A stretch of DNA of 35,085 bases from Alphaproteobacteria bacterium (GTDB lineage Bacteria; Pseudomonadota; Alphaproteobacteria; Micropepsales; Micropepsaceae), in the NCBI GenBank assembly GCA_013140995.1, contig JABFRX010000003.1, positions 1 to 35,085 of the forward strand. The letters are read 5' to 3'. Positions 5,228-14,001 of the stretch are shown here, piece after piece (position 1 is the stretch's first letter; each line of letters begins with the position of its first letter). Below the pieces are notes generated by a model. It did no database searches. It had not been told where the DNA came from and saw only the letters and a list, made by a program, of their open reading frames with translations. The translations under genes were made by a program, and so were the position numbers.

Positions 5228-5884
5228 TTATGGGCGCGACAGTCCGTCGCGCGCTCTGAGACCGTTCAGGAAGAGGTCCAAAGTCTGCCAATGCGCCTCG
5301 GCGGCGCGCTTCGTATCGCCCGTCCGGGCCCAGGTGATGGCCAGCGCATTCCAGGCGGCTACCAGCGCCAAAGCGGCCGTTTCCGGCTCAATTTTTGAGC
5401 TGAACTCGCCTGATTTTTGACCATCGCGCACGACCGTGCTGACGATGCCCAAAAGGCCCGACGAGACCTCATTGAAAGTCGCGCCGGACGCAGGTTGCGA
5501 GATGAGCTCCAGGACGATCTGGCGCATCAGGTGACGGTGCGTGCCCCATTCGGTTAGGTATATTTTCAGGAGCGCTTGCAGACGCTCGGACGCGTTCAAA
5601 CCGTCGCTCGCCAGCTGCTCTTCGACCTTCGCCGCGACATCTTCGTTGTAGGCGAGCGCAAGCGCCGCTTTGTTGCGAAAATGTAAGAAAAACGTAGCGT
5701 TTGCGACGTCGGCCTCGACGCAGATGTCTTCGATTTTGACCTGGCCGTACGGCTTGTCCGCCATCAATTTGAGCGCTGCATCCAGGATGCGGCGGCGGGT
5801 TTCGAGCTTCTTGCGTTCGCGTCTCGACATGCGGTTGTCCCAAGCCCCACGGCGCGGTTCGACGGTCTCATAGCTGCCAGGCAT
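5228..5884 (-). CDS. TetR family transcriptional regulator
   Basis: A 218-residue one-component repressor. The N-terminal helix-turn-helix spans about residues 20-70 (RRRILDAALKLMADKPYGQVKIEDICVEADVANATFFLHF, quoted here in two parts: RRRILDAALKLMADKPYG, then VKIEDICVEADVANATFF), with the usual LHFRNKAAL end of the DNA-binding domain. The helical C-terminal domain binds an unknown ligand. GAGGG lies nine bases before the ATG at 5884; an ATG at about 5830 (MSRRERKK) would also give a complete domain. A perfect 16-bp palindrome 38 bases upstream is a likely autoregulatory operator. Position between the WS/DGAT operon and the divergent hydrolase suggests it controls storage-lipid genes through a fatty acyl ligand, which is inference. 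Confidence 0.9.
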   Translation of the reverse strand: MPGSYETVEPRRGAWDNRMSRRERKKLETRRRILDAALKLMADKPYGQVKIEDICVEADVANATFFLHFRNKAALALAYNEDVAAKVEEQLASDGLNASERLQALLKIYLTEWGTHRHLMRQIVLELISQPASGATFNEVSSGLLGIVSTVVRDGQKSGEFSSKIEPETAALALVAAWNALAITWARTGDTKRAAEAHWQTLDLFLNGLRARDGLSRP

Positions 5885-5921
5885 CGAAACCATCCCTCGC
5901 AACCGCAATAGTTGCGCCCCA

Positions 5922-5937
5922 TCTCTAACGTTAGAGA
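5922..5937. promoter_or_regulatory. Perfect 16-bp palindrome, likely TetR operator
   Basis: TCTCTAACGTTAGAGA reads the same on both strands. It lies 38 bases before the TetR start codon and just downstream of a candidate minus-strand -10 box, where a bound repressor would block transcription. TetR regulators typically bind 14-20 bp palindromes in their own upstream region. It could also affect the divergent hydrolase at 6086. Confidence 0.65.
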
Positions 5938-5953
5938 CGACTCTAGGCTGGCG

Positions 5954-5959
5954 ATTGTA
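5954..5959 (-). promoter_or_regulatory. Candidate -10 box of the TetR gene
   Basis: TACAAT on the minus strand, about 70 bases before the TetR start codon and about 17 bases from the palindrome. The -35 region at 17-base spacing (ACCGAT) is weak, so this rests on the -10 match and its position relative to the operator. Confidence 0.35.
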
Positions 5960-6085
5960 CCCCATGCAACCCTTTGATCGGTCGCTCGTTATTTAGACAG
6001 GCGGGCTTGGCATGTGCCGGGTCTTGCACTTAGCGTTTAGGGTGTGTCGAGTGTGATGACTCGTACAAGTAGCGGGGGCATACAG

Positions 6086-6901
6086 ATGGCCGTAGTAGAC
6101 GCTGCGTCGCTTGGCGTTGAGAAGATCAGACCGCCATCTTTGGCGTTGGCCCTGACAGAGGCCGGACGGGCCGTCGGCGACTTCATAAGTTTGCAAGGCG
6201 CCTCGCCGCTTCTCACGTTCGCACCGAAGGGTGATGGACATCCGGTCATGGTGTTGCCCGGATTTTTGGCAGGCGGGGTGACGACAGCTCCCCTTCGCCG
6301 GTTCTTGACGTCCAAAGGATATGACACCCATTGCTGGGGCTTAGGCCGCAATCTGGGTCCGCATGCGATCGGGCCCGAGGGCGAGCTGCTCGGCCAGCGG
6401 CTTGAGTCGATTTACCGCAAGACCAAACGCAAGGTCAGCCTTGTCGGCTGGAGCCTCGGCGGAATCATGTCGCGCGAATTGGCCAAGCGGTATCCGAAAT
6501 ACGTGCGCCAAGTGATCACGCTGGGCTCGCCGTTCGGCGCGAACCCGCGCGCCAACCATGTGTGGCGTATCTATCAAGCGGTGACGGGGCAGGACCTCGA
6601 TCCCGTCGTGATGCAAGAGGTGTTCGACAACCTCGCCGAAGCGCCGAAGGGCATCCCCTCGACGGCGATCTACTCGCGCGGCGACGGCGTCGTCGCTTGG
6701 CAGATGTGCGTCGAGAAGAAGTCGAAGACGACGGACAACATCGAGGTCTATGCGTCGGTCAGCCATTGTGGGCTCGGCGTGAATCCGGCGGTGTTCTTCG
6801 CGGTCGGCGACCGGTTGGCGCTGCCCGAGAAGGAATGGGCGCCGTTCGACCGCTCGGTCTCTACGTGGCGGCGGTTCGCGTATCCGTCGAGCGGGCACTG
6901 A
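6086..6901 (+). CDS. Alpha/beta hydrolase (lipase/esterase-like)
   Basis: A 271-residue hydrolase with a lipase-like active site. PVMVLPGFLAGG supplies the oxyanion region, GWSLGG carries the nucleophile Ser123, the acid is likely the Asp in YSRGDGVV and the His that in SVSHCGLG. The TLGSPFGANPRANH stretch after the nucleophile helix is typical of lipase-like alpha/beta hydrolases. There is no signal peptide, so it is probably cytosolic. I chose the ATG at 6086, with GGGGG seven bases upstream; an in-frame ATG at 6056 and GTG at 6044 are possible. It is divergent from the TetR gene and may share its operator. A role in mobilising stored esters is plausible from context only. Confidence 0.87.
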   Translation: MAVVDAASLGVEKIRPPSLALALTEAGRAVGDFISLQGASPLLTFAPKGDGHPVMVLPGFLAGGVTTAPLRRFLTSKGYDTHCWGLGRNLGPHAIGPEGELLGQRLESIYRKTKRKVSLVGWSLGGIMSRELAKRYPKYVRQVITLGSPFGANPRANHVWRIYQAVTGQDLDPVVMQEVFDNLAEAPKGIPSTAIYSRGDGVVAWQMCVEKKSKTTDNIEVYASVSHCGLGVNPAVFFAVGDRLALPEKEWAPFDRSVSTWRRFAYPSSGH

Positions 6902-7289: not shown

Positions 7290-8576
7290 CTAGTCTCGAT
7301 ACGCCGGTGGGTATGGTGTCCCCAGGGTGCGGTAGCGCCTGGCTAGTTCGTCGGCGCGGGAGTCCATCGGTTGTTGGACGCCTTTGATCAGGACCGCGAT
7401 GGGTTGCGTGCTGGGTTCCAGCGGATCGCCGGTCCAGACTACGATGTCGGCTTGCTTGCCGCGTTCGATCGAGCCGACCTTCGTTTCGCCGAAGATGCGC
7501 GCGGGGTTGATCGTGAGTGCGGCCAGCGCCGCGTTGTGCGGCAGTCCGTGGGCGACGGCGTTCCCGGCGTTGTAGCGGGCTTCTCTGAGGCGCGAGGCGC
7601 CGTCGCCGTTTGCGATGGCGATGGTCACCCCGGCGGTATGCAGCCTCGCTGCGTTTTCCATCGTGGAGCCGCGGGCTTCGAAGCTCGAGGGCAGGTTCGC
7701 GGTCGGGTTCAGCAGAACCGGTACGCGGGCGCGCGCGATTTCGTCCGCCATCATCCAGCCTTCTTCGGCGCCCGAGAGCACGATCTTCAGGCGGTATTCG
7801 CGGGCGATTTTCAGCACCTCGCGGATGTCGGCTGCGCGGTGGACGCCCACGATCAGTTTCGTGCGGCCTTGCACGACGGGGATGAGCGCGTCGAGGTCGG
7901 CTTTCGTGAAGCGCAGGTCGCGCGTGCCACCGGTGTTGTAGGCGCCGCGGCGGCGTGCATACCAGCGTACGTCGTCGAGGTCGGCGCGCAGTGCCGTGAT
8001 CGCCGAGCCGCGGGCGCCGCCGGCGCGGGCTGCTCCGCCCTCGCCGAGTTCGAGCACTTGGGCGACGCGCGAGCGTGTCACCGGATTTGCACCTTCGGCC
8101 AGCGTGATGACGGCGGCTTGGCCTGCGAACAGAAGCTCGCGGTCTTCGGCGTCCGCATAGGACGGGGTCACAAGTGCGCGGGTCACGCCGCCCAGCCTCG
8201 CGACCGGAATCGCCACCGCGCTGGCGTCGATGCCGTAGGCGATGTTGAAGGCGGCGCTGAGGCCAGAGTTCGTTGTTGCGGTGTCGTTCGTTTCCTTGAC
8301 GAGATCGACTTCCAGCGCGCCGAGGTTCGTTCCAACGATGAAGAAGCCTGGCGTCACCGCGCCGCCTTTGGCGTCGATGACGATGGCGTTCGCGGGTACG
8401 CGGACGCGTGGTCCGACTTGTGCCACCCAACCGTTGTGGATCAGCACGGTGCCTTCCACGTCACCGGCCTTGCCCATCGTGTGGATGCGGGCGTTCGTGA
8501 TGGCGACTGTATCGGCAGTTGCGATGTTTGCGAATAGCGTCGCAAACAGGGCGAGCAGGATGGCGAAGCGGGTCAT
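7290..8576 (-). CDS. Exported amidohydrolase-family protein lacking metal ligands
   Basis: 428 residues, with a Sec signal peptide (MTRFAILLALFATLFANIATA). The overall amidohydrolase layout is present: an N-terminal beta sandwich (VAITNARIHTM), a TIM-barrel middle, and the C-terminal ARIFG...GSIERGKQADIVVWTGDPLE signature. However, the metal-binding HxH that should follow TPGF is replaced (TPGFFIVGTNLG), and the later His strand reads IVLSGAEEGW where the neighbour has ISAFHHGSEA. One His (VGVHRAAD) and an Asp (ANGDGAS) remain. It is therefore likely inactive as a metal hydrolase or uses altered chemistry. Its ATG overlaps the stop of the upstream amidohydrolase gene (TAATG), so the two are translationally coupled and may form a heteromer. 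Confidence 0.85.
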   Translation of the reverse strand: MTRFAILLALFATLFANIATADTVAITNARIHTMGKAGDVEGTVLIHNGWVAQVGPRVRVPANAIVIDAKGGAVTPGFFIVGTNLGALEVDLVKETNDTATTNSGLSAAFNIAYGIDASAVAIPVARLGGVTRALVTPSYADAEDRELLFAGQAAVITLAEGANPVTRSRVAQVLELGEGGAARAGGARGSAITALRADLDDVRWYARRRGAYNTGGTRDLRFTKADLDALIPVVQGRTKLIVGVHRAADIREVLKIAREYRLKIVLSGAEEGWMMADEIARARVPVLLNPTANLPSSFEARGSTMENAARLHTAGVTIAIANGDGASRLREARYNAGNAVAHGLPHNAALAALTINPARIFGETKVGSIERGKQADIVVWTGDPLEPSTQPIAVLIKGVQQPMDSRADELARRYRTLGTPYPPAYRD

Positions 8577-9982
8577 TATTCGCCTCCCTTCGGTTGGCCG
8601 AGCATGAAGTCGGATTTCGGTTGGTAGTTTTTGTCGTTGCGGTCGTACATCAGGGCGCCGTCGACAAAGACTTTTTCGGTCTTGGCGTAGATCGAAAGCG
8701 GGTTTGCGTTCCAGAGCACGACGTCGGCCATCTTGCCCGCCTCAAGCGAGCCGGTCTTGTCCGCGATACCCATCATCTTCGCCGGGTTGGCGGTGATCCA
8801 CTTGATCGCCTCGGCGTCCGATATTTTCAGGCCCTGGCGCCGGCCTGCCGCGAGTGCCGCTGCCGCCTCTTGGTTCAGGCGCTGCGAAAGTATGGCGTCA
8901 TCGGAGTGGATGACGGCGCAGCCGCCGGCGGCGTGGACCAGCGCTGCGTTCGCTTCGATGCCGTCGATGGATTCCATCTTAAAGCCCCACCAGCCGGCCC
9001 AGGTGGCGACGCAAATGTCTTCTTTCGCAAGAAGGTCAGCGACTTTGTAGGCTTCGGAGCCGTGGTGGAAAGCCGAGATTTTGTAGCCGAACTCCTTTGC
9101 GATATCGATCATGATCGCCATTTCGTCGGCGCGGTAGCAGTGGTTTTGCACCAAGATCTCGCCGTTCAGGACGCCCGCCAACGTGTCGAGTTTCAGGTCG
9201 CGATCGGGTGCTTCGCCTTTGCTGTCGGCGGCGTAGTAGCCGTCCCATTTCATTGCGTACTTGGACGCTTCGAGCCAGGCTTTGCGATAGCCCGCGACGT
9301 TGCCCATCCGCGTTGCTGGCGGTTGGTTCTTCGTGCCGTAAACGCGTTTGGGGTTTTCGCCGCACGCCATTTTGAGGCCGTAAGGCGCGTCCGGAAATTT
9401 CATCGCCTGCATCGTTCTTGCAGGCACGTTCTTCAGCGTGACGGAGCGGCCCCCGAACAGGTTTGCGGAACCGGGCAAGATCAAGAGCGATGTCACGCCG
9501 CCGCGGCGCACGGCGTTGAACGCTTCGTCTTGCGGCCAAACGGAGTGTTCCGCCCAGACTTCGGCTGTGTTCGGGCTGACAGCTTCGTTGCCGTCGGAGA
9601 GCGCTTGACCGCCGGGTTGCGCATAGACACCGAGATGAGAGTGCGCGTCGATGATGCCGGGCGTTACGTACTTTCCCTTTGCATTGATTGTCGTGTAGCC
9701 GGCGGGCACCGCAACGTTGGCGCCGACGGCTTCGATTTTACCGTCTTTGATGAGCAGCGTGCCGTTCTCGATCTTGTCGCCGGTGCCGGTGAAGATCGTG
9801 GCGCCGACAAAGGCGGTGGGTGAGTTGGCAAACGGTTTGTAGGTCGAGGGGAACGGATTGGCGTCGGCTTTGGGATCGAGCTTCGGCCGTGTGATCTTCG
9901 GACCCTCGGCAGCCGTTGTGGCGCAACCGGTCACGAGCAAAGCGGCCGCCAGGCAGGCGGCTAGAATGCGTGCGTTGATCAA
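8576..9982 (-). CDS. Amidohydrolase-family lipoprotein
   Basis: About 468 residues, with a lipoprotein signal peptide ending in the lipobox LVTGC, so the mature protein is anchored by a lipidated Cys. The metal site is intact: DAHSHLG (HxH), a His in VQNHCYRADEM, a His pair in SAFHHGSEAYK, and the catalytic Asp in VIHSDDA. The C-terminal GSLEAGKMADVVLWNANPLS is the standard amidohydrolase ending. The enzyme probably cleaves an amide or imide bond, for example in a cyclic or N-acyl peptide; the substrate is unknown. I chose the TTG at 9982 because GGGGGA lies seven bases before it and it gives a normal 18-residue signal; a TTG at 9997 is the alternative. It is the first gene of a two-gene coupled unit. 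Confidence 0.88.
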   Translation of the reverse strand: MINARILAACLAAALLVTGCATTAAEGPKITRPKLDPKADANPFPSTYKPFANSPTAFVGATIFTGTGDKIENGTLLIKDGKIEAVGANVAVPAGYTTINAKGKYVTPGIIDAHSHLGVYAQPGGQALSDGNEAVSPNTAEVWAEHSVWPQDEAFNAVRRGGVTSLLILPGSANLFGGRSVTLKNVPARTMQAMKFPDAPYGLKMACGENPKRVYGTKNQPPATRMGNVAGYRKAWLEASKYAMKWDGYYAADSKGEAPDRDLKLDTLAGVLNGEILVQNHCYRADEMAIMIDIAKEFGYKISAFHHGSEAYKVADLLAKEDICVATWAGWWGFKMESIDGIEANAALVHAAGGCAVIHSDDAILSQRLNQEAAAALAAGRRQGLKISDAEAIKWITANPAKMMGIADKTGSLEAGKMADVVLWNANPLSIYAKTEKVFVDGALMYDRNDKNYQPKSDFMLGQPKGGE

Positions 9983-10147
9983 GTGTATGTCCCCCAAAGT
10001 CCCCTTGGGGCTTACTATTGCACTTTCGAATTGCCGTGAAAATCGCCCGATTTCGCAAACTATGGTGAACCCGGTCGTTGACGGCTCGACGACGGAGGCC
10101 TCATAAGCGCGGCTATGCCGGATTCTGCGGCGCTGGAGGGTTGGTCG

Positions 10148-10765
10148 ATGATCGGGTTGCTTCGCGTGGCGGTGGTGTTGGTCCTCGGGCTAAGCGTTTC
10201 TGCCTGTGCGCTCAGCGAAGACACGGTGAGTCTGCAGTACCAGCCGATGCAAAACGCGACTGAAATCCCGGGCGCGAAACAGACGGGTATCGTCGTGTCG
10301 GTCGTGGATGCGCGCGCGGAAAATCGCGATCGCGTTAGTGTGAAGAAAAACGGCTACGGCATGGAGATGGCCGCCATCCGATCGGATCGCGACGTGGCCG
10401 GATTTGTGAAAGAGGCGATCGAGAGCGAACTCAAAGCGCGCGGCTTTCGGGTTGGCGAAGGGCCTGCGCAAGCGAAGGCGGATTTGCTGAAGTTCTACAA
10501 CGACTTCAAGATCGGCTTTTTCAGCGGCGACGCGGTTGCGGAGGTTGCCTTCAACATTCAGGTTGCCGGCTCGAACGGCGCGATCCTTTACTCCAAGCCC
10601 ATCAGTTCAAGTGGAAAAGCGGCCGACATTCTGCTCGCGAGCGGCTCAAACGCGAAGGAGGCGCTGGAGAACGGTCTCAGGACTGCGATCGCAAACCTTA
10701 TGAACGACCCGGCGTTCATTGCGGCGGTGTTGAAGTCCGGTACCGGCGTAAAGCCGGTCAGCTAG
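10148..10765 (+). CDS. YajG-like lipoprotein
   Basis: 205 residues with a lipoprotein signal peptide and lipobox LSVSAC (MIGLLRVAVVLVLGLSVSAC). The mature part resembles the YajG family of uncharacterised envelope lipoproteins: an early GIVVSVVDARAENRD strand, a DVAGFVKEAIESELKARGF helix, a hydrophobic strand pair around VAEVAFNIQVAG, and a C-terminal helix with a terminal DPAFIAAVL. GGAGGG lies seven bases before the ATG at 10148, which settles the start against an upstream frame opening at 10115. It is divergent from the amidohydrolase pair. Function is unknown; assignment to YajG is by overall pattern. Confidence 0.75.
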   Translation: MIGLLRVAVVLVLGLSVSACALSEDTVSLQYQPMQNATEIPGAKQTGIVVSVVDARAENRDRVSVKKNGYGMEMAAIRSDRDVAGFVKEAIESELKARGFRVGEGPAQAKADLLKFYNDFKIGFFSGDAVAEVAFNIQVAGSNGAILYSKPISSSGKAADILLASGSNAKEALENGLRTAIANLMNDPAFIAAVLKSGTGVKPVS

Positions 10766-10784
10766 TCCGCTGCATAGAGGCGCC

Positions 10785-11276
10785 GTGATCTACATCGCCC
10801 TTGGCGCCAATGTGGCGTCCCCGGTTGGGCCCCCCGCAGTTACGCTTCGGCGCGCGCTCGAGGCGATGGCTAAGCACGGGATTTCGGTGATTGCGGTGTC
10901 GCCGCTTTACCGGTCGCAGGCTTGGCCGAATCCCGCCGATACGCCGTTCGTGAATGCGGTCGCCGAGGTTAAGACGCGGCTGCTGCCAGGGCAACTTTTG
11001 AAGGCGTTGTTGGCTGTCGAGAAGGCGTTCGGACGTGTGCGCAAATCGCGCAACGAACCGCGCACATTGGACCTCGACTTGATCGACTATGGCGGGCTCA
11101 TCAGTGACGCGGAGCAGCTGACGCTCCCGCATCCCAGAATGCTTGAGCGGGCGTTCGTGCTGCGGCCGCTTGCCGATATCGCGCCCCACTGGCGACATCC
11201 TGACACGGGGGAGAGCATCGTGAGGCTCCTTGGAAATGTTGGGGAGGCAGGGCTCGAACGGCTGACGGAGGCCTGA
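10785..11276 (+). CDS. folK: 2-amino-4-hydroxy-6-hydroxymethyldihydropteridine pyrophosphokinase
   Basis: Folate biosynthesis enzyme that transfers pyrophosphate from ATP to the hydroxymethyl-pterin. 163 residues, the family size. It begins IYIALGAN like other FolK proteins, has [18 protein letters not shown] in the pterin-binding region, and carries the signature [11 protein letters not shown] (two Asp for Mg2+) followed by [19 protein letters not shown]. It starts with GTG at 10785, with GAGG a few bases upstream, 19 bases after the YajG-like gene. folP and folB are not in the window. Confidence 0.96.
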
Positions 11277-11293
11277 AAACTGCGGTTTTGGCC

Positions 11294-11322
11294 TTGTTTT
11301 CGCGACCGCAGCAGACTACTTT
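11294..11322 (+). promoter_or_regulatory. Candidate promoter of rpoZ
   Basis: TTGTTT (11294-11299) and TACTTT (11317-11322) are separated by exactly 17 bases, placing a transcription start near 11330, about 30 bases before the rpoZ start codon. Found by eye; sigma-70-type matches of this quality occur by chance. Confidence 0.35.
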
Positions 11323-11358
11323 CGGCGCTCACCCTCATGCGAAGGATTCTCGCGCCCG

Positions 11359-11745
11359 ATGGCTCGCGTTACCGTTGAAGATTGCGTCGACAAGATCCCG
11401 AACCGTTTTGAGCTCGTTCTGCTCGCTGCGCATCGCGCGCGTTCGATCACGTCGGGCGCGTCGTTGCTCGTCGATCGCGACAACGACAAAAACCCGGTCG
11501 TGTCGCTGCGCGAGATCGCAGCATCGAAGGTGAAGCCGGACGGCTTGCGCGAAGAGTTTCTGCTCAGCCTGCAACGCCACATCGAAACCGACGAGCCGGA
11601 GGCTGAGAAGGCCGCGATGGCGGAAGCCGCCGACGTACCGGAATTCTCGAACGTTTCCGAGGCCGAGTACGCCCGTGCAATGCGCGCCGACTCCGACGTC
11701 AAGCGGCCAGAGGTGGTGGAAGAGGTTGACGAAGGGGACGCTTAA
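11359..11745 (+). CDS. rpoZ: DNA-directed RNA polymerase omega subunit
   Basis: The small subunit that helps assemble RNA polymerase and stabilises beta'. The N-terminal [20 protein letters not shown] and [11 protein letters not shown] followed by [10 protein letters not shown] are the conserved omega core. At 128 residues it has the long acidic C-terminal tail common in alphaproteobacteria. AAGGA lies about twelve bases before the ATG. The position directly upstream of rsh is conserved in many proteobacteria and links omega, which forms part of a ppGpp site on RNA polymerase, with the enzyme that makes ppGpp. Confidence 0.97.
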
Positions 11746-11757
11746 CCCAGCCGATCA

Positions 11758-11790
11758 GGCACTCTTCGTGCCGCCCATGGGGCGGCTTTC
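11758..11790 (+). terminator. Overlapping hairpins between rpoZ and rsh
   Basis: GCCGCCC (11770-11776) pairs with GGGCGGC (11780-11786) over a three-base ATG loop, followed by a T-rich tail TTTCTGTTCT: a short intrinsic terminator shape. A second hairpin, GGCAC (11758-11762) with GTGCC (11768-11772), shares three bases with it, so the two are mutually exclusive. The T-tract is interrupted, so termination may be partial. Confidence 0.5.
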
Positions 11791-11832
11791 TGTTCTCCAA
11801 GATAAGCGCCGCGTCATGAGGAGTTTCATCCC

Positions 11833-14001
11833 ATGATGCGGCAGTTCGAGCTCGTCGAGCGCGTCAAGGCCTACGATCCGGAGGCGGACGAGGACTTGCT
11901 GAACCGCGCCTATGTTTTCGGCGTGAAGGCGCACGGTAATCAGAAGCGCGATTCCGGCGATCCGTATTTCTCGCACCCCCTCGAGGTCGCGGGGATTTTG
12001 ACCGACCTCAATCTGGACGAGGCGACGATCGTGACGGCTCTGCTGCACGACACGATCGAAGACACCGACGCTTCCTACGACGAAATCCAAAGGCAGTTCG
12101 GCAAAGAGATCGCCGACTTGGTCAACGGCGTCACTAAGCTTTCGAAGCTTGAGTTGCAATCGGAAGAGACGAAGCAGGCGGAGAACTTCCGCAAATTCAT
12201 GCTTGCGATGAGCCACGACGTGCGTGTGCTGCTCGTCAAGCTTGCCGACCGGCTGCACAACATGCGTACGCTGAAGTCGATCGAGAAGGAAGACCGGCGC
12301 AAGCGCATCGCGGCGGAGACGATGGAGATCTATGCGCCGCTTGCGGGCCGCATGGGGATGCAGAATTTCCGCGACGAGCTCGAAGACCTAGCGTTCGAGG
12401 AAATCAATCCCGAGATGCGCACCTCGGTGATGAAGCGGCTTGCGGAGTTCCGCAAGAAGACCGGCGCGGTAACGGAGCGTTTGGCGCAGACGTTGAAGCG
12501 CAAGCTCTCCGAATACGGGATCGAGGCCGAGGTCAGCGGGCGGGAGAAGAAACCGTATTCAATTTGGCGCAAGATGGAGGAGAAGGGGCAGACCTTCGAC
12601 CAGCTGGCCGATATCTTTGCGCTGCGCGTGACCGTCGGTACGATCGAGGACTGCTACCGGGCGCTAGGCGTCATCCATAGCACGTGGCGGCACGTGCCCG
12701 GCCGTTTCAAGGACTACATCTCGCTGCCGAAGACGAACAACTACCGCTCGCTACACACGGAAATCTTCGGGCCGGAAAACCAGCGCATCGAGTTGCAAAT
12801 CCGAACGGAGGAGATGCACGAAATCTCCGAGCGTGGGATCGCGGCGCATTGGACTTACAAAGACAAGCTGAACGGCGGGCGGCCGCTTGCGAACATCGAC
12901 GCCTACGAGTCGCTGCGCTCGTTGATCGAGTCGCTGAAAGTAGGTGATACCCCGGAAGAGTTCTTCGAGAACACGCGGCTTGAGCTTTTTCAGGATCAGG
13001 TGTTTTGTTTCACGCCAAAGGGCCAATTGATCGCGCTGCCGCGCGGGGCGACGCCGATCGACTTTGCCTATGCCGTTCACACAGACGTCGGCGACACTTG
13101 CGTGGGTGCCAAGATCGACGGGCGGCACGTGCCGCTGTCGACGAAACTCAAGAACGGCAACAGCGTCGAGATTATCCGGTCGCCGAAGCAGGGCCCCTCC
13201 GCGATCTGGGAGAGCATGGTCGTGACCGGCAAGGCGCGCTCCGCGATCCGGCGCTACCTCAAGAACGTCGAGCGGTTTGAGCACCAGCGAATGGGACGCG
13301 CGATCCTGGAAAAAGCGTTCCGCGACGCGGGACAAGAGTTTTCGGAGAAGTCTTTGGCGGCGGCATTGAAAAAGTTGAAGCTCGCCAAAGCGGAGGACGT
13401 GTATTCGCATCTGGCCGAGGGGCTCGTGACGGCAGCAGATGTCGTGAAGGCCGTTTTCCCGGGGCTTAAGGAAGAGTCGCCGCTGACCAGTTGGACGAAC
13501 TGGATCACGCGTAAGCCGAAGCCAAATGCGATTCCGATCGAAGGCCTGTCGCCGGGGCTTGGCTATCATTTGGCTCCGTGCTGTCAGCCGTTGCTTGGCG
13601 ACCGCATCGTCGGCGTCATCAGGACGGGACAAGGCGTTGTCGTGCATACGATCGATTGCGATCGCCTTGTGGATCAGCAGGATCAATTGGATCGCTGGAT
13701 CGATCTGAAGTGGTCGCCGGACGCCGCGAACGAGGTGCAGGTCGGTCGGCTGAAAGTTGCGGTCAACAACGAGGCCGGTGCGCTTGCCAATATGTGCAAC
13801 TCGATAGCGCAGCACGGCGGGAATATCACGAACCTGAAGATCGTCGAGCGCGCGCCGCTCGTCTTCGGTATGCAGGTCGATATCGAGGTGCGTGACGCGA
13901 AGCACCTTGCAGACATCATCACGGGCCTGCGCGCGTCGCCGTCGATCAACGCCGTCGATCGTACACACGGGGAAAAGGAACTTGCTGCTCATGACGCCTG
14001 A
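11833..14001 (+). CDS. rsh: Bifunctional (p)ppGpp synthetase/hydrolase (RelA/SpoT homologue)
   Basis: Makes and degrades the stringent-response alarmone (p)ppGpp. 722 residues with the full long-RSH layout: HD hydrolase domain (His48, HDTIED with His72-Asp73, KLADRLHNMRT), synthetase domain (GREKKPYSIWRKM, RVPGRFKDYISLPK-like region with RFKD at 291-294, then NNYRSLHTE and GIAAHWTYK), TGS domain (FCFTPKGQLIALPRGATPIDFAY is its signature, seen from nt 13006), a zinc-finger-like segment with APCCQPLLGDRI, and a C-terminal ACT domain. Both catalytic sites look intact. The RxKD motif is the form found in bifunctional enzymes, not the ExDD of synthetase-only RelA. AGGAG lies nine bases before the first of two adjacent ATGs. 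The 3' end overlaps pyrE by 11 bases. Confidence 0.97.
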   Translation: MMRQFELVERVKAYDPEADEDLLNRAYVFGVKAHGNQKRDSGDPYFSHPLEVAGILTDLNLDEATIVTALLHDTIEDTDASYDEIQRQFGKEIADLVNGVTKLSKLELQSEETKQAENFRKFMLAMSHDVRVLLVKLADRLHNMRTLKSIEKEDRRKRIAAETMEIYAPLAGRMGMQNFRDELEDLAFEEINPEMRTSVMKRLAEFRKKTGAVTERLAQTLKRKLSEYGIEAEVSGREKKPYSIWRKMEEKGQTFDQLADIFALRVTVGTIEDCYRALGVIHSTWRHVPGRFKDYISLPKTNNYRSLHTEIFGPENQRIELQIRTEEMHEISERGIAAHWTYKDKLNGGRPLANIDAYESLRSLIESLKVGDTPEEFFENTRLELFQDQVFCFTPKGQLIALPRGATPIDFAYAVHTDVGDTCVGAKIDGRHVPLSTKLKNGNSVEIIRSPKQGPSAIWESMVVTGKARSAIRRYLKNVERFEHQRMGRAILEKAFRDAGQEFSEKSLAAALKKLKLAKAEDVYSHLAEGLVTAADVVKAVFPGLKEESPLTSWTNWITRKPKPNAIPIEGLSPGLGYHLAPCCQPLLGDRIVGVIRTGQGVVVHTIDCDRLVDQQDQLDRWIDLKWSPDAANEVQVGRLKVAVNNEAGALANMCNSIAQHGGNITNLKIVERAPLVFGMQVDIEVRDAKHLADIITGLRASPSINAVDRTHGEKELAAHDA

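Follow-up and report, generated by a model that had tools for sequence, protein, structure and literature searches.

The window (the whole stretch of 35,085 nucleotides that was analysed) contains two adjacent amidohydrolase genes on its minus strand, here designated A and B. Gene A (8576-9982) runs from a TTG start codon at 9982, with an alternative in-frame TTG at 9997, to a TAA stop at 8578-8576 and encodes a lipoprotein-type amidohydrolase of 468 aa. Gene B (7290-8576) starts with the ATG at 8576, terminates at 7292-7290 and encodes a ligand-less paralogue of A with a length of 428 aa. The last base of the A stop codon is the first base of the B start codon, resulting in a TAATG overlap on the minus strand (8574-8578), and a Shine-Dalgarno-like AGGGAGG (8583-8589, minus strand) is located within the 3' end of A ahead of B. 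The junction sequence AAGGGAGGCGAATAATG is identical across the loci L009, L010, L011 and L013. In one annotated record the two genes are called only 'amidohydrolase' and 'amidohydrolase family protein'. The genes on both sides of the pair (5228-6901 and 10115-14001) are ordinary-looking by eye; we take them to represent a TetR-like regulator, a hydrolase-like ORF, a lipoprotein-like ORF and folK-like, rpoZ-like and RelA/SpoT-like genes. A comparison of neighbour clusters in 65 loci revealed no conserved neighbour that points to a pathway, and the recurrent clusters are explained by locally shared gene order, by frame artefacts or by membership of large families, such as the TonB-receptor-like genes recognized by eye in 15 of these 65 loci.

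Both proteins match the families PF01979 (A, 55.1 bits; B, 50.2 bits; cut-off 25) and PF07969 (A, 65.3 bits; B, 40.7 bits; cut-off 29.7). The best fold match of their AlphaFold2 models (mean pLDDT 82.7 for A and 88.6 for B) is the structure 3ooq with Z scores of 47.9 for A and 46.5 for B, compared with Z scores of 24-26 for the next-best folds among the matches listed and of 22-26 for other amidohydrolases. The same entry is the best match by sequence (E 2.6e-67 for A; profile E 3.3e-56 for B), and A and B are 3ooq-type amidohydrolases with a clear top match by sequence and fold. 3ooq is a structural-genomics entry from Thermotoga maritima that is named only 'amidohydrolase'; its locus name is presumably TM0814. 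A substrate could not be assigned from curated families, with the NCBIfam matches of the pair lying far under their cut-offs. The literature also raised metal-dependent bile salt hydrolases, which are characterized by an additional domain at the C-terminus and by residues predicted to bind sulfonate (PMC13081902), but no tie to A or B was found, and a paper on Caenibius proved irrelevant to the pair.

The predicted metal site distinguishes the two proteins. A harbors the HxH motif H114-S115-H116 (9635-9643; numbering of the 468-aa protein), the barrel histidines H281 of strand 5 (9140-9142; VQNHCYRADE) and H307 of strand 6 (9062-9064; AFHHGSE), and the strand-8 aspartate D361 (8900-8902; IHSDD), all encoded on the minus strand. 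We take these five positions to be metal ligands according to the canonical pattern of the superfamily, alongside their conservation in the present dataset. In B the HxH motif is replaced by G82-T83-N84 (8325-8333, minus strand), and the strand-5 and strand-6 ligand positions align with G244 and G269, respectively. The histidine H246 of B (GVHRAAD) lies two residues past the strand-5 ligand position and is out of register, and the position of the strand-8 aspartate, whose placement in the window protein is ambiguous, aligns with G324, directly adjacent to D325. In this alignment, B of the window possesses none of the five ligands.

Most of what the first-pass annotation had read from this locus was retained. 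The coordinates and frames of A and B proved correct on re-reading, in agreement with its description of a coupled pair with a TAATG overlap, and the upstream lipoprotein, to which it had ascribed HSH, both barrel histidines and the aspartate, contains all five predicted ligands. For B it had rightly named the GTN substitution and the lost second barrel histidine, but the extent of the loss was understated, because the first barrel histidine is also gone. The C-terminal motif of B (GDPLE) is kept as claimed, as is the fold, with an AlphaFold2 model that matches the amidohydrolase fold, and the proposed signal peptide of B is plausible as judged by eye.

The distribution of ligands among relatives was determined for 328 modules, comprising 156 A, 147 B and 25 N modules, the labels of which were assigned from profile scores. 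N designates a ligand-poor, amidohydrolase-like N-terminal module that precedes an intact A in eight genomes with long frames. Modules matching fewer than 300 profile positions (from acidobacterial-type and other region readings) were dropped from the counts. All five ligands are present in 149 of the 156 A modules, and the other seven comprise three truncated copies and four representatives of a second pair type. The 147 B modules harbor no ligand in 103 cases, one in 32, two in seven and three in five, never four or five, and the N modules are comparably poor (none in 20, one in four, two in one). The removal of copies with 99% identity resulted in five of five ligands in 147 of 154 A and in none in 101 of 144 B, so that the pattern is not driven by near-identical copies; among the redundant entries, L015/L029 and L016/L103 are each a single set of genes listed under a pair of ids, and L060 and L065 are nearly identical. 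In a set of 30 further loci from a search of 398 genomes, in which the window and genome G047 are counted again, A has all five ligands in 30 of 30 cases, and 19 of the B lack every ligand and the other 11 retain one.

Among the 96 window-type B modules (loci L009-L108), no ligand is found in 84, one in 11 and two in a single module. The latter is L098, a window-type B from a metagenome-assembled genome of Oligoflexia that has HTH at the place of HxH, and neither a barrel histidine nor the aspartate. Both HxH histidines occur in three of all 147 B modules (L098, L229 and L260). The deep-branching modules of L229 and L260 have additionally kept the strand-6 histidine, and those of L231-L233 have kept H72, the strand-6 histidine and the aspartate. 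Among the window-type B, an aspartate is found at the aligned strand-8 column in only two of 96, the strand-6 position is occupied by Gly in 91 of 96, and at the other four former ligand positions the most frequent residue is in each case present in just 30-32 of 96. A metal site that was rebuilt with other residues was thus rejected, as no replacement besides the strand-6 Gly is fixed in these 96 modules. Some B may nevertheless not be fully inactive, as 12 of 147 modules retain two or three of the ligands and a single window-type B retains HxH. A divergent second pair was observed at L177, the second locus in genome G189, whose B keeps only the first histidine of HxH (HST).

The first-pass annotation had set beforehand as a test that ligand loss should be a trait of the orthologues in general, and this expectation was borne out, with only one of the 96 window-type B retaining HxH. 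Among the first 14 B sequences that were aligned (13 genomes, the window included), none has both HxH histidines, and a local mutation or an assembly error was rejected on this basis; the B of L022 keeps the second histidine of the motif. The same ligand-poor state recurs in records of several phyla and is therefore more than a matter of chance.

The loss of all five ligands in the window protein would also be expected of a decaying duplicate, i.e. a pseudogene of A. B is, however, under purifying selection, albeit constrained less than A, with dN/dS values of 0.15-0.24 for B and 0.07-0.12 for A in three species of the window's genus. Moreover, 57 of the 59 B matches in the 398 genomes lack an in-frame stop. 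The stop-flagged matches, two B (G360 and G420) and seven A, are all nine full-length open frames in which the flagged stop is the gene's own end. B is distributed over several phyla with its length and frame kept, and its split from A appears to predate the sampled lineages. Decay of B is accordingly unlikely on account of purifying selection, the co-occurrence with A and the open frames, and we rejected this explanation, whose probability is close to nil, on selection, distribution and frame.

The two genes occur together. A search of 61 related genomes, in which B was accepted up to 1e-20 and A up to 1e-40, detected both genes in the same 13 genomes (own included) and neither of them in the other 48. 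The pair is patchily distributed: within the genus it is present in seven of 11 genomes, counting the window's own, and elsewhere in the family in four of 26, some of the genomes being incomplete. In 398 genomes of the window's phylum, presumably Pseudomonadota, that were searched at 1e-60, A was found in 62 and B in 59. Wherever A is a stand-alone gene, in 54 genomes, the listed coordinates place B directly downstream of it on the same strand. In the remaining eight of the 62 genomes, which belong to another class, A is part of a frame of 1006-1110 residues that is followed by B; three B of these eight genomes fell below the 1e-60 limit and were found by reading the loci. The 80 named loci contain 82 copies of B, of which 81 adjoin an A and the last one is cut by a contig end. 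At 71 of these 81 junctions, A and B share 1 or 4 nt when B is taken to start at the start codon nearest to the A stop, a choice that favors short overlaps. Apart from the contig-cut copy, no B without A was encountered in these sets of genomes and loci. Four A-like homologues from Actinomycetota and Bacillota plasmid records are devoid of a second module within about 4 kb. A complex of A and B is suggested, since relatives keep both genes together.

The acidobacterial-type genomes provide further architectures. A search with A in the phylum to which L073 belongs, presumably Acidobacteriota, covered 247 genomes and yielded A-like matches in 121, from which 40 regions, one per genome, were hand-picked, chiefly from the head of the match list and not at random. 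B is located beside A in 37 of these 40 regions, and the other three (L257-L259) pair an intact A-like copy with one that is poor in ligands. A and B are fused in a single frame in nine cases (L229, L230, L235, L243, L250, L252, L253, L256 and L260), with linkers of 11-68 aa in which no signal-peptide-like hydrophobic stretch was seen, and L251 exhibits a fusion in reverse order. These nine fusions, all of which stem from the phylum of L073 and none from a window-type pair, are the strongest hint of a contact between A and B. In the long N-A frames, B follows as a separate gene.

Some loci of this family are unusual in their own right. The second pair type, found in the acidobacterial-type loci L243 and L257-L259, consists of an A-like copy missing most ligands near an intact A-like copy, and it belongs to neither the A nor the B group of the tree described below. 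Locus L243 (G467:C4:10500-20500) harbors six tandem modules of the family over about 8 kb, with intact and ligand-poor modules mixed. On a plasmid of Hymenobacter volaticus (NZ_CP095062.1; L188, 4454-8463), a long gene of the N-A type is apparently split over three annotated CDSs that lie in different frames, and a B-type gene follows.

The pairing and the fusions also bear on the idea that B is an independent metal-free enzyme or binding protein, which is co-expressed with A in a pathway without forming a complex. LigI is a metal-independent member of the amidohydrolase superfamily and provides a precedent, and B does look exported and constrained in sequence. This explanation is nevertheless quite improbable, given that no replacement residue save Gly is fixed at the old site and that the A-B fusions and the constant pairing exceed what the sharing of a pathway would usually call for.

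The N-termini of the two proteins differ in a consistent manner. A contains a lipobox-like LVTGC, and the N-terminus of B resembles, by eye, a signal peptide without lipobox. According to a home-made lipobox rule, 63 of 75 A and none of 82 B score positive, the numbers differing because A sequences in which the STY/STF start motif could not be read were excluded. In at least two loci, L099 and L103, A is devoid of a lipobox and exhibits a membrane-anchor-like segment instead. A is thus probably tethered to the membrane, and the sequence pattern suggests that it is the membrane-anchored partner through which B reaches the membrane. The natural A-B fusions together with the presence of the lipobox on A only favor a heteromer.

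The phylogenetic analysis is based on 112 rows from which the ligand columns were removed; it is a quick tree in which 28 of 109 forks are open. One group (SH-aLRT 98) comprises 42 A rows; a second (SH-aLRT 96) is made up of 56 B and N rows, with the N rows nested inside B. Outside of both groups are 14 rows, namely four singletons that serve as outgroup, nine A-like rows from acidobacterial-type tandem loci, and L243_1_B. A and B share a common ancestry, and the topology fits a scenario of one old duplication that gave rise to A and B and a second duplication that gave rise to N, with an A/B split that is probably older than the sampled lineages. The order of lineages looks mirrored between the A and B groups by eye, and A-A and B-B pairwise identities are correlated with r 0.91 (140 A/B pairs); both the mirroring and the correlation partly reflect shared descent. 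The strand-6 histidine requires a minimum of four changes on the whole tree, and counts of ligand loss depend on the open forks. The loss of ligands seems to have proceeded stepwise and more than once, with some doubt left by these forks.

Active-type and ligand-less paralogous chains are encoded together at this locus, as would be expected of a heteromeric enzyme with a pseudoenzyme subunit. We consider it likely that A and B are the obligate partners in a single heteromeric enzyme of the cell envelope, in which B has replaced one copy of an ancestral homomer; this supports the regulatory or structural pseudo-subunit proposed by the first-pass annotation. The physical complex, the need of A for B in order to be active, the location in the envelope, the self-association of the ancestor and the stoichiometry are what we infer from the comparative data. 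B would trace back to the ancient duplication of a one-gene enzyme resembling 3ooq of Thermotoga, and its metal site would have been lost once B was fixed as a partner. In the contemporary enzyme, the lipid-anchored A would carry the metal site and hydrolyse an amide, peptide or related bond, whereas B would be exported as a soluble protein and retained at the membrane by A. Translational coupling may supply A and B in about equal amounts. B would occupy the second position of the oligomer, thereby stabilising A and shaping the access of the substrate, and we propose that it has been retained because it fills this position. A candidate docking element is the C-terminal helix of B (residues 407-416; 7329-7358, minus strand), which was delimited by the model and by conservation. 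Its residues R407, L411, R414 and Y415 are conserved at 0.98-0.99 in window-type B, and not in A or N.

Conserved residues of B could alternatively reflect a regulatory or sensory partner, whose empty barrel binds a small molecule (substrate, product or other) and either tunes A or delivers substrate to it. The model retains the whole barrel fold, and strongly conserved residues, some of them specific for B such as E89 and W274, would be in accordance with such a role. The former ligand positions vary widely, however, with the exception of the strand-6 Gly, and a shared binding site is not evident there, so we regard this role as unlikely. Under the heteromeric reading proposed above, the findings could be extended to a whole branch of the family. 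We see an even chance that the 3ooq-type branch passed from a single chain to an obligate heteromer in which a live barrel is held by a dead B or by N and B, with stepwise and parallel loss of ligands, origin of N by duplication of B, repeated fusions of live and dead modules, and a second pair type that arose likewise. The branch in question spans Pseudomonadota, acidobacterial-type genomes and others. If A needs B, assays on A alone would produce false negatives, and the function of a widespread family might thereby escape notice; in the window's phylum, A is present in 62 of the 398 genomes searched. The graded ligand loss in B moreover offers a natural series for the transition from an enzyme subunit to a pseudoenzyme.

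No description of a comparable pair of an active and a ligand-less amidohydrolase was found among the papers listed, with most subscription journals lying outside the reach of the search. The closest relative of known structure, 3ooq, resembles A in that its HxH motif and both barrel histidines align with those of A. It differs from the pair in having one active-type chain, present in ten copies in the entry, and no ligand-less partner listed. Among the fold matches of B are the CRMP or dihydropyrimidinase-related proteins. CRMPs are amidohydrolase-fold proteins retained for non-catalytic roles; they are eukaryotic and cytosolic and are not known to be encoded beside an active partner.

Closer functional parallels come from other systems. 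The M16B proteins represent another family with a fold different from that of the amidohydrolases. According to PMC12731061, the M16B heterodimers of the mitochondrial processing peptidase (MPP), SPH2681/SPH2682, TTHA1264/TTHA1265 and AlbF/AlbE combine an active metal chain with a homologous partner; the partner chain of MPP lacks a zinc motif and is yet essential, and TTHA1264 and TTHA1265 are encoded by neighbouring genes. This combination of a metal-binding active chain and a homologous partner is the one proposed for A and B, but the M16B complexes have solved structures, whereas contact between A and B is hinted at by fusions alone. The second parallel is the pDHO of the Pseudomonas aeruginosa ATCase, an inactive dihydroorotase homologue that is needed for the activity of its partner, and the related pDHO domain of CAD-like proteins is reported to lack zinc ligands (PMC7053772). 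The likeness consists of an inactive homologue of an enzyme that serves a partner; in contrast to the A/B pair, which also looks exported, the partner of pDHO is a transcarbamoylase and not an active paralogue. By analogy, the A/B pair most likely works like the M16B pairs and the ATCase-pDHO complex, while being a member of neither.
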